Below are positions 40,643-61,236 of a DNA stretch of 64,000 nucleotides, one piece after another (positions within the stretch are counted from its first letter, which is position 1; each line of letters starts with the position of its first letter). The notes below the pieces were generated by a model. It ran no database searches. It was not told where the DNA came from and saw only the letters and a program-made list of their open reading frames with translations. Made by a program: the position numbers and the translations under genes. The DNA comes from Erythrobasidium yunnanense (taxonomy: Eukaryota; Basidiomycota; Cystobasidiomycetes; Erythrobasidiales; Erythrobasidiaceae), in NCBI GenBank assembly GCA_001600175.1, contig BCJC01000008.1, positions 622,781-686,780 on the forward strand, in the 5' to 3' direction.

Positions 40643-43265
40643 CTAGCCTGGTATTTGGCTAGGACTCTGGATGAGGACGACTACCGCGCCGACTTCGTTG
40701 ATCTGATCCTTCATTGGCGTCAAGCAGACTCGTACGCCTTCTGTCCATAGACCGCCTGGATGTGTGCGTGGGCTGAAAGCAAAGTTCACATTGTCGATGT
40801 CTATCCGTTCGCCCGCTTTTATCCGATCTTTCATAGTTTTGTGATCTTTGGACCCAACTAGCTTGCTGAAGTCTGTGCCAATGTGGATGTCGCTTGGTAG
40901 GTTCGGAGAATGGAAAAGGACTGTCGTAGCTAAGCTGTCGAGAATAACGTAGTGCGAGGCAGACTGGTAGAACAAAAAAAATCAGCTTCTGAAACTGCAG
41001 TGAAGATTGCTCTTGAGAAGTCGCTGGCTTACGTCGTTGAACTCTTTCGTCTGTTCTGCAAGCGACATCTGTGCTCGCGCTTTTCCCTCAGTGTCCATAT
41101 ACGAAGCGGACGTTCCAGGCCGTTGAAACAAGCTTCCAGTAGTGGTAGGTCTTGCACTCGCACCAGTCCACTGCGAAGGTTTCGAGAAAGAACCTGCTGA
41201 GCCATCGAAAGCCAATGCAGCCGCTGCATGTCCATGTATGTCTCTGCTCGCCGAGCGCGGGCGATGTATGTCTGTTGACGATCTGCCTTCAGGACATTTT
41301 AATACGACAGCACCCATCGCTGGAGATGCCGTATTCGAAGACATAGACCCCAGCGATGCTTTCTTGGCAATCTCCTTTCGCGCTTCTTGGCTTTTCTGAT
41401 GCGGATCGACTTCTGCGTTTTGCTTATCTAGCGAATTAAGGTATGCGCGCATCGCTTCTGTCGCATTTTGTTTCTGATCTTCTGCGATGTCGTGTTCGAA
41501 GGAAGAAGGGCGTGGAGGCATATATGCGGGATCGAGGTCGTCTGCCAACAGGTGCGCAAGCCGTGTACCTGCCGCTAGAGCAGTTGTGACGTTCACTTGT
41601 GCGCCAAGCAGATACTTCAACTTCCCATTTGCATTCCGTAGAGGCTACAGCAGTGATCAGTAACTAGGACAGAACGCGAAAGACCAGGAGATTGGGGCTT
41701 ACGATGATACTGAGCAGACTCCAGAACGGCACGCCATCTTTGCGGTAGTTGAGAAGCATCTCAGTCGAGTGCTTACCCTCTTTACACGCTTCTCGTATCC
41801 GAGCTATCACCGCTGGTGCCGTCCCTGGGCCTGCGAATTACAGGTCAGCGCGATGTCTCGTCTAACGCTTCCTGACATTACCTTGCAAGAAGCGACAATT
41901 CCGCTTCAGAACGTCGTCTCGACTATATCCTGTCAGGTCTAGAAAGCCATCGCTGATACATGCTGAATGTCAGCGTGAATCGGCAAACCATTATCATAAC
42001 AGCTTTACCTGATCAACAGCAGCGGCTGATCCCTTTCTTCGTTTGGATCTGCTAATGTGAAGGAGGTTTGTGGCTGTAGGCAAGATTCCCTTCAGCATTC
42101 TGATAATGCAAGTGATACAGGACAGACGCACCGGCGGCAATCTCCCTTCCTGCATCTTAGCCTGCAGCAACTCAAGGCGCCATTGCAAGAATCTGGGCCA
42201 CGGATCATCATATAGCGCTTGGAACGCCATATCTCTCGCGACTTTGAATGGGTCATCTGCGCGCGTGAAAGATTTGATCGCCCGCTCGATGTTATAGCGC
42301 TCTGCGCTTGTTATATTCAATGCCATAGGAGCGTTCGAAGGAATATGTAATGAGTGGACTTTTTGGGTGAGGGCGTGTAGGCGTTTTAGATCGTTGCGAT
42401 GTTGTTCGGCCTGAACATGCGATTCAGCTTTGTCAGAATAATAGGATTGGAATAAGATGCGACGCACGTTAAGCCAGAAGACGAGCGTTTCTGCATTCAT
42501 TTCTGAAGCGAGAAACTGGCCAAACTTCCATAGCCCAACGGGATCGTCCAGCATTGACCGCAGGGCTTTTCTGTTTGACAGTCCGAGCAGTAGCTGCTCG
42601 TAATCTTGCTGTCCTGCCGGTAGTGTAGGAGTGTGTGTTTGGCTTGAACTTGGGATGGGAGATGATCGGAAAGCGCTGCTGCTTGGCAGCATGGGTGTTT
42701 TCGAATTGTCTTCATTGGGATCTGTCGTTGAAGAAGAAGGGGGTCTGAGAGAATGCTGGGAAGAAGAGGTATATTGTGAAGATGGGGATGGGAGACCGGA
42801 TGAAGCTGAGAAGGGAGAAGTAGTAGTGGATGATGAGTTGGCAACTTTGAGGCTCCCAAAGCCTAGATGTAAGTTCCGAGCAGGATCAGAAGCTGATGAA
42901 GTGCTAAAGTCTGGTGTTCTTGGACTCGAAGACGCAGGTGGGGAAGGTAGACAGCCGTCGTCGTTATCCGAGTTTGGCGAAGTCTCCAAGCTGGGTGAGC
43001 CAGGTATGCTGAGGAGGGTAGATTCCGATACGTATGATCCATGCGACCGTGCATGTCGCTGTTGTGCTACTGCTGCAGACAACGACGAAGAAGAAGTCGC
43101 GCCACTTGGCAGTCCTCGGTCGGACGAGCTGCTGTTATTGCTCGACAAGGATGAAGTCGACGTGTTCTTGCGCTTGAAGCCTTTACTCAACCAGTCCAAT
43201 GACTTCTTCTGCTTCAATGGCGGCATACTGCTCGCTGCTGCTGGCCCAGCGCTGCTCGAGGCCAT
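40643..43265 (-). CDS. RGS-LOV photoreceptor (RGS domain, flavin-binding LOV domain, C-terminal PAS-like domain)
   Basis: Predicted blue-light sensor coupled to an RGS module. Start MASSSAGPAAASSMPP, then a Ser-rich basic N-terminus. The RGS domain spans LSNRKALRSMLDDPVGLWKF, SEMNAETLVFWLNVRRILF and ALYDDPWPRFLQWRLELLQ. The LOV domain follows after two introns: ADPNEERDQPLLLISDGF, LDLTGYSRDDVLKRNCRFLQ, GPGTAPAVIARIREACKEG, LLNYRKDGVPFWSLLSIIPL and YLLGAQVNVT. The photoactive cysteine of the NCRFLQ motif is encoded at 41897-41895, and the flavin-contacting Asn and Gln positions (LLNYRKDG, AQVNVT) are present. After a disordered linker the last exon encodes SASHYVILDSLATTVLF and then SPSQIPG. 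The domain order matches fungal RGS-LOV proteins such as Botrytis BcLOV4, known to bind membranes in light; that behaviour is inferred here. Confidence 0.9.
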
Positions 43266-44285: not shown

Positions 44286-45591
44286 ATGGACCTCTCATCC
44301 TACAGCGTCTCGCTCAAGACTGGTTTCCTGCCTGAAGAGCCTCCTACTCGCTTGGAAGGCCAAAGCTTTGCAGCTTACGAAGATCTTATCCAGCAATTAC
44401 CGGATCTAATCAAGAGCAGACAGCTTCTTTCAAGAGTCAATGAACTACCACCATTCAGATTGGAAGACTTGCGGACGGAGAATGAATGGAGAAGAGCGTA
44501 CTCTGTGCTGGGATTTCTCGTAAACGGCGTCATCTGGGGAAGCGCATCGACGCCTACTGAAGTATGTCGTGACTTGGCACAGCTCATAAGTATGGCTAAG
44601 ATGTGAGATACAGCACATCCCTCCTGTCCTTGCCATCCCGTACCTCCAAGTCTGCGAACACCACGACCTCCTTCCGACTATCACATATGCCAACTCTGCT
44701 CTATGGAACTGGACAGCACCACCTGATTCAGACTGGTCTGATGCGGACCAGCTGCACACATTGACAAGTTTCACCGGTACACGGGACGAAGAATGGTTCT
44801 ACTTGTCGAGCGTGACAGTCGAAGCAGCGGGAATTGAGCCTTTCCGAATCCTGATGGGTACAATGGACGCTGTCGACTCTAATGATCACAGCAAAGCCGC
44901 AACTCTACTCAACACTCTACCGGAGAAGCTAGAAAGACTAGGCGTGGTGCTCGATAGGGTGTGGGAGAAATGCGATCCTGCCATATTCTACCATGTCCTG
45001 AGACCCTTCTTGGCAGGTGGAAAAGGAATGGAAGACGTTGGGCTGCCGAAGGGTGTCTTCTTTGATCAGGGTGAGAAGGGAGATGGGAAATGGATGAAAA
45101 TTGCTGGAGGATCAGCGGCGCAGAGCTCGCTGTTCGCGTTCTTCGATGTAGCGCTGGGTGTCAAGCACCTCAAGACTACAAAGGTGGATACTAAGGCAGC
45201 TTTATCAGAGGTGAGCCCGCTCTCTCGCATTCAAACGGGTTCTGCTTGCTGAAGTACCATGTTTCAGATCCGGCTGTACATGCCAGGCCCTCATCGGCGT
45301 TTCCTAGAAGCCATCGAGTCCCGTTCTCGTATCCGAGAATTCTGCACGTCCCCCTCCGCGTCTTCAGAAGTGATACAAGCGTACAACGCAGCTTTACGTG
45401 CTATCGCAGATTTCCGACAGCGGCATATACGTATTGCGCAAAGGTATATTATACGAGAAGCGAGGGGAGGGAAGCCGCAGAGCTCGACTGATGGGAATGG
45501 ACAGGCCCAAGGGACGGGTGGGACGGACTTGAATGACTTCTTGGGACAGAATAGGGAAGAAACATTGGCGGGAATCGTTAGGAAGCCTTGA
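44286..45591 (+). CDS. BNA2: indoleamine 2,3-dioxygenase
   Basis: Heme dioxygenase converting tryptophan to N-formylkynurenine, the first step of kynurenine/NAD synthesis. Exons 44286-44561, 44614-45210 and 45268-45591 total 1197 nt (398 aa), the usual IDO length. Family motifs are AYSVLGFLVNGVIWGSAST, IPPVLAIPYLQVCEHHDLLP and AGGSAAQSSLFAFFDVALG (the substrate-site GGSA...SS region). Then comes IRLYMPGPHRRFLEAIESR, where the MPxxHRxFL histidine is the proximal heme ligand. Introns are 52 and 57 nt with GTATGT and GTGAGC donors. Two CACGTGAC boxes lie upstream. It is divergent from the RGS-LOV gene. Confidence 0.92.
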
Positions 45592-58646: not shown

Positions 58647-59471
58647 TTACCAATCGAGAGGTGCAAGTGAAAGAAGCTGAGCTTTGCCAGTTTCGACATC
58701 GACGTAGATTTTATCTCCGGGTTGGTAGGGCAGCCAGCCGTAACTCGAGATACATAGCTCCTGCGGCGTGTACTCTTCGATCTTGCCAAAGAGAGGTCTG
58801 ACTTCGATCATGGCCGAAGGATTGTTGAATCTCCATTCACTTAAGATAGTCCCCAAGTATCTATAATTGCTGTTTTCGTCAATGATGTGCTTCTGTTGTC
58901 TGATTCTCTTCTCCAAGCGCAAAAGCAAGTGTCGACTATTGTTTACCACTCCTTCGCTGTACAACTGCTTTTCGCGGGTCTTCTTGTTCTTGGCGATATA
59001 CATGTATTGTCCAACTTTGGTTGCTCCAACATAAGGCTGATGCTTACCAAATATGAAGCGTTCGTGGTGGATCTTTGATTGTTTGCTCGCTGAGGACGCC
59101 GCTTTGTGTCTGGCGAGCGTGAACACGGTCTGATAGTCTTCTAGTTCTATCTTGCTGATTCTACCGTATCGCTCAAAGCGAAACTTGCGTGGTGGTATTT
59201 GCTGGCAATCTGTATCCATCGTAGGCTCGAGCCCGTACTCTACTCTTCCGAGATCAAAAGCGCCTTCGGATGTCAGAGCGCTGGACGAGCTACTGGATAA
59301 GGAGGGACTGGTCCCTAGGGGTATCGTGGTGACCGATCTACATGGATAAGTAGGTCCGGCCCATGCAAGCGAAGAAGAGGACGAAGCTTCGGACTTGATT
59401 GTAGAGGCCCTCGATGCTCGACGAGAGGTAAGTGCTGATGCAGTACGATGATCGTGAGCTGAAGAATGCAT
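58647..59471 (-). CDS. intronless protein of unknown family, tandem paralog P1
   Basis: Unrecognised; about 274 aa if started at MHSSAHDHRTASALTSRRAS (59471), chosen because it aligns with the start of P2. An in-frame ATG at 59579 would add a hydrophobic leader MSLFLSSPSLLAGVNLGM. The N-terminal third is Ser/Arg-rich with a SLAWAGPTYP motif shared with P2 (ALEWAGSTYE). The folded part is shared along its length: FRFERYGRISKIELEDYQTV, ERFIFGKHQPYVGATKVGQY, LYSEGVVNNSRHLLLRLEKR, NYRYLGTILSEW and GDKIYVDVETGKAQLL. No transmembrane span, zinc ligands or catalytic motif recognised. It lies between DUF7729-like paralogs. Confidence 0.65.
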   Translation of the reverse strand: MHSSAHDHRTASALTSRRASRASTIKSEASSSSSLAWAGPTYPCRSVTTIPLGTSPSLSSSSSSALTSEGAFDLGRVEYGLEPTMDTDCQQIPPRKFRFERYGRISKIELEDYQTVFTLARHKAASSASKQSKIHHERFIFGKHQPYVGATKVGQYMYIAKNKKTREKQLYSEGVVNNSRHLLLRLEKRIRQQKHIIDENSNYRYLGTILSEWRFNNPSAMIEVRPLFGKIEEYTPQELCISSYGWLPYQPGDKIYVDVETGKAQLLSLAPLDW

Positions 59472-59962
59472 TGCTTTGGTCTGCTCTGTCGATTCCGTGC
59501 GATTGAATAGAGGACAGCGGGTTACCATGCCTAGATTCACACCAGCGAGTAACGAGGGCGATGAAAGGAAGAGGGACATGAAAAGGGACCCTTCCAAAGG
59601 GATGGCATTAGAGGTGATTCAACAGGTACATCAGCTGGAATGGCAGGGTTAAGTATCAAAGCTGAACACTGGAGAACGTCACAGTAGTGCAAGAGTGGTC
59701 TAAGTTCCATGTCTCTCGGTCTATTCAACAGGCAGAGGCGAGAGGAGCCTGTACTTACCTGCCTTCTCACAGAGTCGGTCACCAAATTCTGCTCGAAGGC
59801 TCGGCGGTACGCGATATAGCTGAACCTCCTCACCTGAGAGTAAACGGAGTGCTACGCCTAAGTCACCCCAGCAGAGCGTATCGGGAAGAGGTACGAGAAA
59901 GGCTTACAAAGTATCCAAAGCATCAAATCTAAAAGGAAGAGCAGAGAACAGCACCTGCATAT
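59472..59962. other. intergenic region between P1 and P2
   Basis: 491 bp; may contain an upstream exon or signal-like leader of P1, not demonstrable. Confidence 0.45.
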
Positions 59963-60802
59963 CTATTCCGTAATCACGGTCGGAAGCACTTCGATCTTGC
60001 CTGTCTTCAGGTTTTTGTATATCTTGTCAGTTTCTTTGACGTCTAGATCGTATAACAACATCGGTTCAACGCCCCAGTCGTCGTCGTTTGGTCGTAGTTT
60101 CTTGCCAGAAGGGTTTACGATCCCGGTCGTGAGTACACCGAGCCAGTCAAACAGCTGAGGAACGGTTCCTAACAATGTATAATTCGGATTGTCGAGCACC
60201 CTCTTTTTCTTCTTGTCGATTTTTACTTGTAATTCTTGAAGGAGTCGTCGGCTTTCCCGTACTACTGCCTCGTTGTAAAGCCTTTTGCTACCAGTCTTGA
60301 CATCTTTTGTGACGTACATATGCTGTCCGACCTTGACCATTCCGAAAGCATGAGACTGAGTTGCACCAAACGAGAAACGTTTGTAATTGGGTTGCTGCGT
60401 CCCGTGTTTTGTTGATCCATTTCGGAGGATCGTGTATATAGGCTTGCCGGAATCTATTGCTATATCGATGATTTTGCCGTATACCTGGAAGCAAACCTTG
60501 CGACGTGAGGTCTTCAGTCGCGCATTCAGATTGGCGGGCACTTTGGAGTCGTCTAATGGTTCTAGGCCGTATTCGAAGCTTGCTAGAGCGGATGAAGGAG
60601 AAGAGGTGGATGAGATTGAGTTGGCACGCGAGCGACTTGCCTCCTCTTCGTAGGTGGATCCTGCCCACTCGAGGGCAGAGGTCGAAGAGCAGACTGATCC
60701 TGATCTGCCTGAACCAGCTGTGGTTTGCCGATGTGATCTAGGTCTCGATGCCTGTTCGCTGGCTCTGGACGAACGGCGACTAGCTGTATTTGTGAAGCTC
60801 AT
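59963..60802 (-). CDS. intronless protein of unknown family, tandem paralog P2
   Basis: Unrecognised; 279 aa from MSFTNTASRRSSRASEQAS at 60802. It shares with P1 the Ser/Arg-rich start, the WAG-STY motif, and the core segments VCFQVYGKIIDIAIDSGKPI, YKRFSFGATQSHAFGMVKVG, LYNEAVVRESRRLLQELQVK, NPNYTLLGTVPQLFDWLG and DKIYKNLKTGKIEVLPTV. The conserved order suggests one globular domain of about 190 residues. The frame stays open upstream of 60802 with a hydrophobic stretch (VGFRLLLLTALTPAQREY) preceded by an AG acceptor-like site. A short 5' exon adding a secretion leader is therefore possible but unproven. Confidence 0.65.
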   Translation of the reverse strand: MSFTNTASRRSSRASEQASRPRSHRQTTAGSGRSGSVCSSTSALEWAGSTYEEEASRSRANSISSTSSPSSALASFEYGLEPLDDSKVPANLNARLKTSRRKVCFQVYGKIIDIAIDSGKPIYTILRNGSTKHGTQQPNYKRFSFGATQSHAFGMVKVGQHMYVTKDVKTGSKRLYNEAVVRESRRLLQELQVKIDKKKKRVLDNPNYTLLGTVPQLFDWLGVLTTGIVNPSGKKLRPNDDDWGVEPMLLYDLDVKETDKIYKNLKTGKIEVLPTVITE

Positions 60803-61236
60803 ATTGCTAGAGTGCGTTGTGATGACTTCGATACGAGTGTATTCGCGTTGTGCTGGAGTCAGCGCTGTGAGTAAGAGCAGACGAAAGCCCACACACACTG
60901 CGAGAGAGCCTTTAAGGCATATGAAAAGTGTGAAAGGTCAGCTCGGACAAAAGGGCAGGAAAGGGACCATGACAGAGCGGGACTGAGTAGAGAGGTATGC
61001 TGTCAGGGCTTGGAGTTAGCAGTGAAACCAGAGCAGCGACGCGAGTAACAGTCTTGCGACTAGGTATTACAGCTGGAGACAAGAGGAAGGAGACGCGCAG
61101 AATACGCGGAGCGTGAAGAGGAAGCTCCACAGAGAGTGCATTCGTAGAAATCTCACTGAACGTTGTCTGCTTTGTCGTCAGAAATAATGTTTTGAACTAC
61201 ATGGAGCGGATCGCATACTTTTGCAGCCTTCTTAGT
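60803..61236. other. intergenic region
   Basis: 434 bp; may include a 5' exon of P2 (see that entry). Otherwise nothing recognised. Confidence 0.45.

Follow-up and report, generated by a model that had tools for sequence, protein, structure and literature searches.

A predicted fungal RGS-LOV photoreceptor with a noncanonical flavin pocket, and its paralog in the same genome

The 64,000 bp stretch of DNA analyzed here (the window) carries on its minus strand, at 40643-43265, an intact gene model for an RGS-LOV photoreceptor of 776 amino acids that, judging by its sequence, is probably functional. A single gene model encodes an RGS domain, a LOV domain, and a C-terminal domain, and the LOV domain retains the adduct cysteine together with most of its flavin pocket. 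As a protein it is an ordinary addition to a known class; the novelty lies mainly in the prediction that one genome carries two RGS-LOV genes, each encoding a changed light-sensing pocket. Its domains and residues are best explained, with reasonable though far from complete confidence, by a fungal RGS-LOV blue-light receptor whose RGS domain would damp G-alpha signaling in the light.

Structure of the RGS-LOV gene

The spliced model runs from an ATG at 43265 to a stop codon at 40645-40643, and its six exons (43265-42132, 42073-42009, 41952-41882, 41830-41703, 41644-41033, and 40963-40643) predict 776 residues. Both ends of the gene, and the cysteine codon of its NCRFLQ motif at 41897-41895, lie exactly where an earlier note on this DNA had placed them. 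All five introns are of the GT-AG type, with lengths of 58 (42074-42131, GTGCGT...CTACAG), 56 (41953-42008), 51 (41831-41881), 58 (41645-41702), and 69 bases (40964-41032); the last contains an in-frame TGA. The predicted order is a serine-rich N-terminal region (residues 1-221, bp 42603-43265), the RGS domain with its flanks (residues 222-378, bp 42132-42602), the LOV domain, a long linker, and the C-terminal domain. The LOV part is divided among four short exons. Its start (SFTLADPNEERDQPLLLI, which aligns with SFCLVDLREGPEQIIGMAS of the paralog described below) is in exon 2 (42009-42073), the adduct cysteine Cys419 in exon 3 (41882-41952), the flavin-contacting Asn451 and the variant Ser461 in exon 4 (41703-41830), and its end, with Leu478 and Gln482, in exon 5 (41033-41644), which continues as linker up to residue 670. 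Exon 6 (40643-40963) encodes residues 671-776, the putative PAS-like C-terminal domain, and the stop codon.

Codon preference, trained on eight long ORFs of the window, is a weak test of this model. In each of the seven coding stretches tested, the modeled frame outscores both other sense frames; in the N-terminal stretch, for example, it scores 0.15, versus -0.04 and -0.06 for the other sense frames and 0.11 for one antisense frame. In exon 3 one antisense frame reaches 0.26, versus 0.05 for the modeled frame, and two introns score 0.23 and 0.16 in one frame each. These last values, the spreading of LOV over four exons, and the TGA that lies in frame ahead of the last exon would fit a mis-joined model, in which RGS and LOV come from separate genes, or a dead gene. 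That is very improbable, given the uniform GT-AG introns of 51-69 bases, the consistent advantage of the modeled frame over the other sense frames, and the retention of the whole domain order in a paralog that is only 31% identical. The fusion of RGS and LOV in one gene model is well supported by the small GT-AG introns, by the restoration of the LOV core on splicing, and by the paralog of the same architecture; the common order of RGS, LOV, and C-terminal domain in both argues that the combination is not due to chance, and the predicted architecture is nearly certain. Two separate genes for RGS and LOV were considered and rejected, since splicing restores the LOV domain and the paralog shares the order.

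A second RGS-LOV gene

A search of the whole genome with the PAS_9 family gives five matches, two of them in a WC-1 gene and one each in a GATA-bearing frame on contig C4 that resembles WC-2, in the window gene, and at C6:1629787-1630074. The paralog (L022:2444-4630; G000:C6, about 1628.9-1631.1 kb) lies on a different contig from the window gene. When the window protein's domains were compared by tblastn with six fetched loci, the paralog matched its RGS, LOV, and C-terminal domains in that order (E values of 2e-26, 3e-23, and 9e-8, respectively). Its spliced model has eight exons and 601 residues, with a short N-terminus, and includes a 10-base micro-exon, a 37-base intron, and one GTTCGT donor, all of which need proof. 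The two proteins are 31% identical over 563 alignment columns and have a common domain order that includes the linker and the C-terminal domain, and Pfam finds both RGS (30.0 bits) and PAS_9 (39.3 bits) above cut-off in the paralog. Its LOV domain reads NCRVLQ at the adduct motif, and has Val at the second flavin-contacting Asn and Ile at the position of AsLOV2 Phe509.

A whole-genome RGS family search gave four matches, including the window gene, and the C6 paralog was not among them, probably because its RGS domain is interrupted by introns; RGS counts for this genome are therefore lower bounds. A search of the openly licensed literature turned up no genome reported to carry two RGS-LOV genes.

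LOV domain and flavin pocket

In the spliced protein, RGS and PAS_9 are the only Pfam families over cut-off, so the full-length profile search that the earlier note had proposed finds both of the domains it had named. The PAS_9 match covers residues 395-486 with 65.3 bits (cut-off 27). A sequence search of the PDB gave 161 distinct sequences at E<=0.1; the best 60 of the 161 all align to the LOV region, and the best is a phototropin LOV domain (8qi8_A, E 1e-27). When the window protein is aligned with the paralog, with this genome's WC-1, and with the phototropin LOV of 8qi8, it keeps pocket residues N418, C419, R420, F421, Q423, N451, G480, and Q482. The photo-adduct cysteine predicted within NCRFLQ is Cys419.

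The same note had claimed that all key LOV residues are present, and here its finding, essentially right as a whole, needs correction. Ser461 occupies the position of the second flavin-contacting Asn (AsLOV2 N492, YtvA N104), Leu478 replaces the pocket Phe equivalent to AsLOV2 F509, and Lys416 replaces the Gly of the GXNCRFLQ motif; the WC-1 of this genome retains Asn and Phe at the N492 and F509 positions. At the three positions of a fully canonical flavin pocket (N482, N492, and Q513 in the AsLOV2 numbering of PMC10949197) the window protein has Asn451, Ser461, and Gln482, and because of Ser461 it is classed here as an RGS-LOV protein with a variant pocket.

Substitutions at this Asn are known from YtvA. 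In a YtvA-based fluorescent protein with no adduct cysteine, flavin fluorescence is described as persisting in N104S and N104I, though clearly lower in N104S (PMC4041573), data that bear on flavin binding and not on the photocycle. Substitutions of N104 are described as having a moderate effect on the YtvA photocycle, with recovery in wet E. coli cells taking 620 s for N104A, 1100 s for N104D, and 2100 s for the wild type (PMC4161478). By analogy with these YtvA data, photoactivity of the window LOV domain is likely retained with quicker dark recovery; they suggest that Ser461 may be tolerated with a faster photocycle, and with Ser at the second flavin Asn the lit state would be expected to decay faster than that of a canonical LOV domain.

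Ser461 and Leu478 nevertheless count against the photoreceptor reading. The pocket could have drifted, leaving a light-insensitive RGS protein or a sensor of redox state or of flavin itself: the Asn492 and Phe509 equivalents are missing from both paralogs (Ser and Val, and Leu and Ile, respectively), the Phe452 equivalent is Val in the second gene, and WC-1 shows that the same genome retains both Asn492 and Phe509 equivalents elsewhere. We consider such drift rather improbable, since the adduct Cys, the other flavin Asn, the Gln, and the Arg are present in both paralogs and since YtvA tolerates changes at the variant Asn (PMC4041573, PMC4161478).

RGS domain and possible G-alpha coupling

The Pfam RGS family (PF00615) matches residues 235-361 with 31.2 bits (cut-off 23.9). 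When the RGS region alone was compared with the PDB by phmmer, 31 sequences matched at E<=1, the best being RGS7 (E 2.2e-07); 28 of them are named RGS proteins and the others are GAIP and CG5036, which are RGS proteins as well, and one valine-tRNA ligase. The intact RGS fold that had been claimed for this protein has support at the level of sequence, from Pfam and from these PDB matches. The RGS model predicted from the window exon and one contiguous paralog exon has a pLDDT of 44.3, which is unusable and weighs neither way, and no RGS structure is among the best 50 structural matches listed for it.

Assuming that the G-alpha contacts of RGS4 are E83, E87, N88, N128, L159, D163, and R167, five of these seven positions are kept in the window protein (E83, E87, N128, D163, and R167 as E255, E259, N317, D354, and R358, respectively). 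The N88 equivalent is Thr260 and, in an alignment judged by eye at this point, the L159 equivalent is Ala350. The paralog has E, E, Q, N, D, and R at E83, E87, N88, N128, D163, and R167 and, again by eye, Ser at L159. Seven loci of the genome are over cut-off in a G-alpha family search and three others are weaker, compared with three G-alpha subunits in T. reesei; the seven are possible targets. Two of the seven, with equal scores (C6:1957262-1958580 and C9:5206-6524), each lie less than 7 kb from a contig end and are perhaps a recent subtelomeric duplication. The five kept contacts and the seven G-alpha loci make coupling of light to G-alpha by the window protein plausible, and Thr260 and Ala350 count against its regulating G-alpha.

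Information on the Magnaporthe oryzae relative points both ways. Rgs5, an RGS-PAS protein, is described as interacting with two of the three G-alpha subunits, and its deletion as raising cAMP (PMC10056346). The rgs5 deletion is also described as having no visible phenotype and no observable change in conidiation, and the authors of that study considered that MoRgs4 and MoRgs5 may have roles independent of G-protein signaling (PMC3248559); the null phenotype and this view count against the favored explanation. They would be in keeping with a photoreceptor that is recruited to the membrane but uses its RGS domain chiefly for autoinhibition or scaffolding instead of as a working GAP, as would the BcLOV4 RGS domain, which apparently holds back lipid binding in darkness (PMC8993538), and the two changed contacts (Thr here and Gln in the paralog for Asn88; Ala and Ser, by eye, for Leu159). 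Such a non-GAP role is unlikely, though it is the alternative to which we give most weight, because both paralogs keep five of the seven contacts and because, in M. oryzae, the related protein binds G-alpha and cAMP rises when it is deleted (PMC10056346).

C-terminal domain

The C-terminal domain (residues 671-776) follows the long linker and has a homologous domain in the paralog. The description of this domain as PAS-like is tentative: a structure model of low confidence (pLDDT 57.9) has mostly PAS structures among its matches, but sequence searches do not find PAS there. A Pfam search of the spliced protein finds no PAS in this domain, its profile compared with LOV sequences gives a probability of 0.2%, and its profile compared with PDB sequences gives 0 matches. 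In a tblastn search of the genome at E<=10, the two RGS-LOV genes are the only loci found (paralog E 0.0055). The earlier note regarded the Ser-rich N-terminus and the C-terminal domain as this protein's own; the N-terminal region is indeed 30% Ser, but a C-terminal domain is also present in the paralog and in BcLOV4 as described in PMC8993538.

Possible membrane binding

In Botrytis cinerea BcLOV4, a helical linker that is polybasic and amphipathic connects J-alpha with the C-terminal domain and is speculated to bind lipid (PMC8993538), and the protein is reported to reach the membrane in about one second (PMC12941744). By analogy the window protein may also move to membranes. The linker helix, which the earlier note had singled out for comparison with BcLOV4, was sought by scoring basic amphipathic segments (D) and comparing them with 500 shuffles. 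No such helix stands above shuffles in the linker of the window protein, where the best segment (547-564, D 1.18) is matched by 369 of 500 linker shuffles, and this counts against the favored explanation. The strongest basic amphipathic segment lies instead at the N-terminus, where residues 18-35 (KQKKSLDWLSKGFKRKNT), within the Ser-rich region, have a D of 2.30. Shuffling the N-terminal region gives this value or more in 2 of 500 cases, and shuffling the whole protein does so in 51 of 500. In the C-terminal domain, the segment 702-719 has a D of 1.50.

In the paralog the best linker segment (D 1.46) is reached by 222 of 500 shuffles, and a basic aromatic N-terminal segment (NKPRKWYRLPKVLSPSPK) has a D of 2.39 with prolines within it. 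Among proline-free segments of the paralog, the best at the N-terminus does not exceed shuffles, 310 of 500 of which reach its score, and the best overall, at 226-243 between RGS and LOV, has a D of 2.16 that 84 of 500 shuffles attain. Should the window protein bind membranes, its N-terminus would be the first place to look; the corresponding place in the paralog is less clear.

Relationship to known RGS-LOV proteins

LOV proteins with an RGS domain are reported from Magnaporthe, Botrytis, and Fusarium and as absent from Aspergillus and Neurospora, and these fungal proteins are said to have had very little attention (PMC10056346). Compared by description, BcLOV4 likewise has an N-terminal RGS domain, LOV, a linker, and a C-terminal domain (PMC8993538); the function of its C-terminal domain, a part that the window protein also has, is given there as unidentified. 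BcLOV4 differs in the amphipathic polybasic linker proposed in that paper, since the window linker is not above shuffles. MoRgs5 of M. oryzae similarly has an N-terminal RGS domain and C-terminal PAS/PAC by description, and the main text of PMC3248559, which describes it as RGS plus PAS/PAC, does not use the word LOV. LovB of Fusarium fujikuroi is described as having LOV and RGS likewise, but is 663 amino acids long versus 776 here (PMC10056346), and rgs-lov of Verticillium dahliae is also described as a LOV protein with RGS (PMC7493669). None of the ten photoreceptor candidates listed for Ustilago maydis in PMC4831468 is an RGS-LOV protein, and the main text of that paper does not use the term RGS.

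Genome context

Family searches of the genome find three opsin-type loci and four photolyase/cryptochrome loci over cut-off and one phytochrome match. Together with WC-1 and the two RGS-LOV genes this is a rich light-sensing set, which fits a working photoreceptor.

The WC-1 homolog (L020; G000:C6:1822000-1830000) has LOV, PAS, and, across an apparent intron, a C-terminal GATA zinc finger. A GATA zinc finger in WC-1 is described as not typical of Basidiomycetes (PMC4831468), and it is present here despite STE3 and the number of G-alpha loci, which suggest a basidiomycete.

Within the window, an indoleamine 2,3-dioxygenase gene begins on the plus strand (44286-44603), divergent from the RGS-LOV gene and about 1 kb from it, with no evident link between the two. 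Two adjoining minus-strand ORFs (58647-59597 and 59963-60898) are alike by eye and match no Pfam family at E<=0.01; they may be tandem members of a family not yet described. Elsewhere in the genome an STE3-type pheromone receptor is present twice, in opposite orientation and with identical scores, at 9-10 kb and 48-49 kb of a 57.9 kb contig (G000:C10), which could be either an inverted duplication or an assembly artifact. A strict scan for CAAX pheromone ORFs beside one of the two copies found none, and a looser scan there found five short ORFs with a Cys fourth from the end, none of them a usual CAAX ORF. The genome search gave no match for STE2 or FRQ, a miss that does not show absence. A trehalose-phosphate synthase fragment scores almost equally against four PDB chains, with 384 bits for 8fhw (Cryptococcus), 383 for 6jbi (Magnaporthe), 380 for 5hvm (Aspergillus), and 372 for 5hut (Candida).

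Proposed mechanism and significance

From these domains we infer the photochemistry, GAP activity, and membrane movement of a light-driven brake on G-alpha. FMN (or FAD) in the LOV domain would form an adduct with Cys419 under blue light, and Gln482 would then rearrange, giving looser contacts among LOV, the C-terminal linker, and RGS. A basic membrane-binding segment would be exposed and the protein recruited to the inner surface of the plasma membrane, where RGS would meet GTP-bound G-alpha and speed GTP hydrolysis, so that the signal would be damped in the light. With Ser461 at the second flavin Asn, this lit state would be shorter-lived than that of a canonical LOV domain. BcLOV4 provides a precedent, both for light-driven membrane binding (PMC12941744) and for autoinhibition involving RGS (PMC8993538).

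A bolder and rather doubtful extension is that the Ser and Val pockets tune the two proteins to different, fast photocycles and that docking has moved to an N-terminal basic segment in both, so that they would form two light-driven brakes with different kinetics serving an enlarged G-alpha set.

BcLOV4, itself an RGS-LOV protein, serves as an optogenetic light switch (PMC8993538). The natural Ser and Val pocket variants found here predict fast, measurable photocycles, and a genome with two RGS-LOV genes and seven strong G-alpha loci would allow a direct test of light-controlled G-protein signaling.
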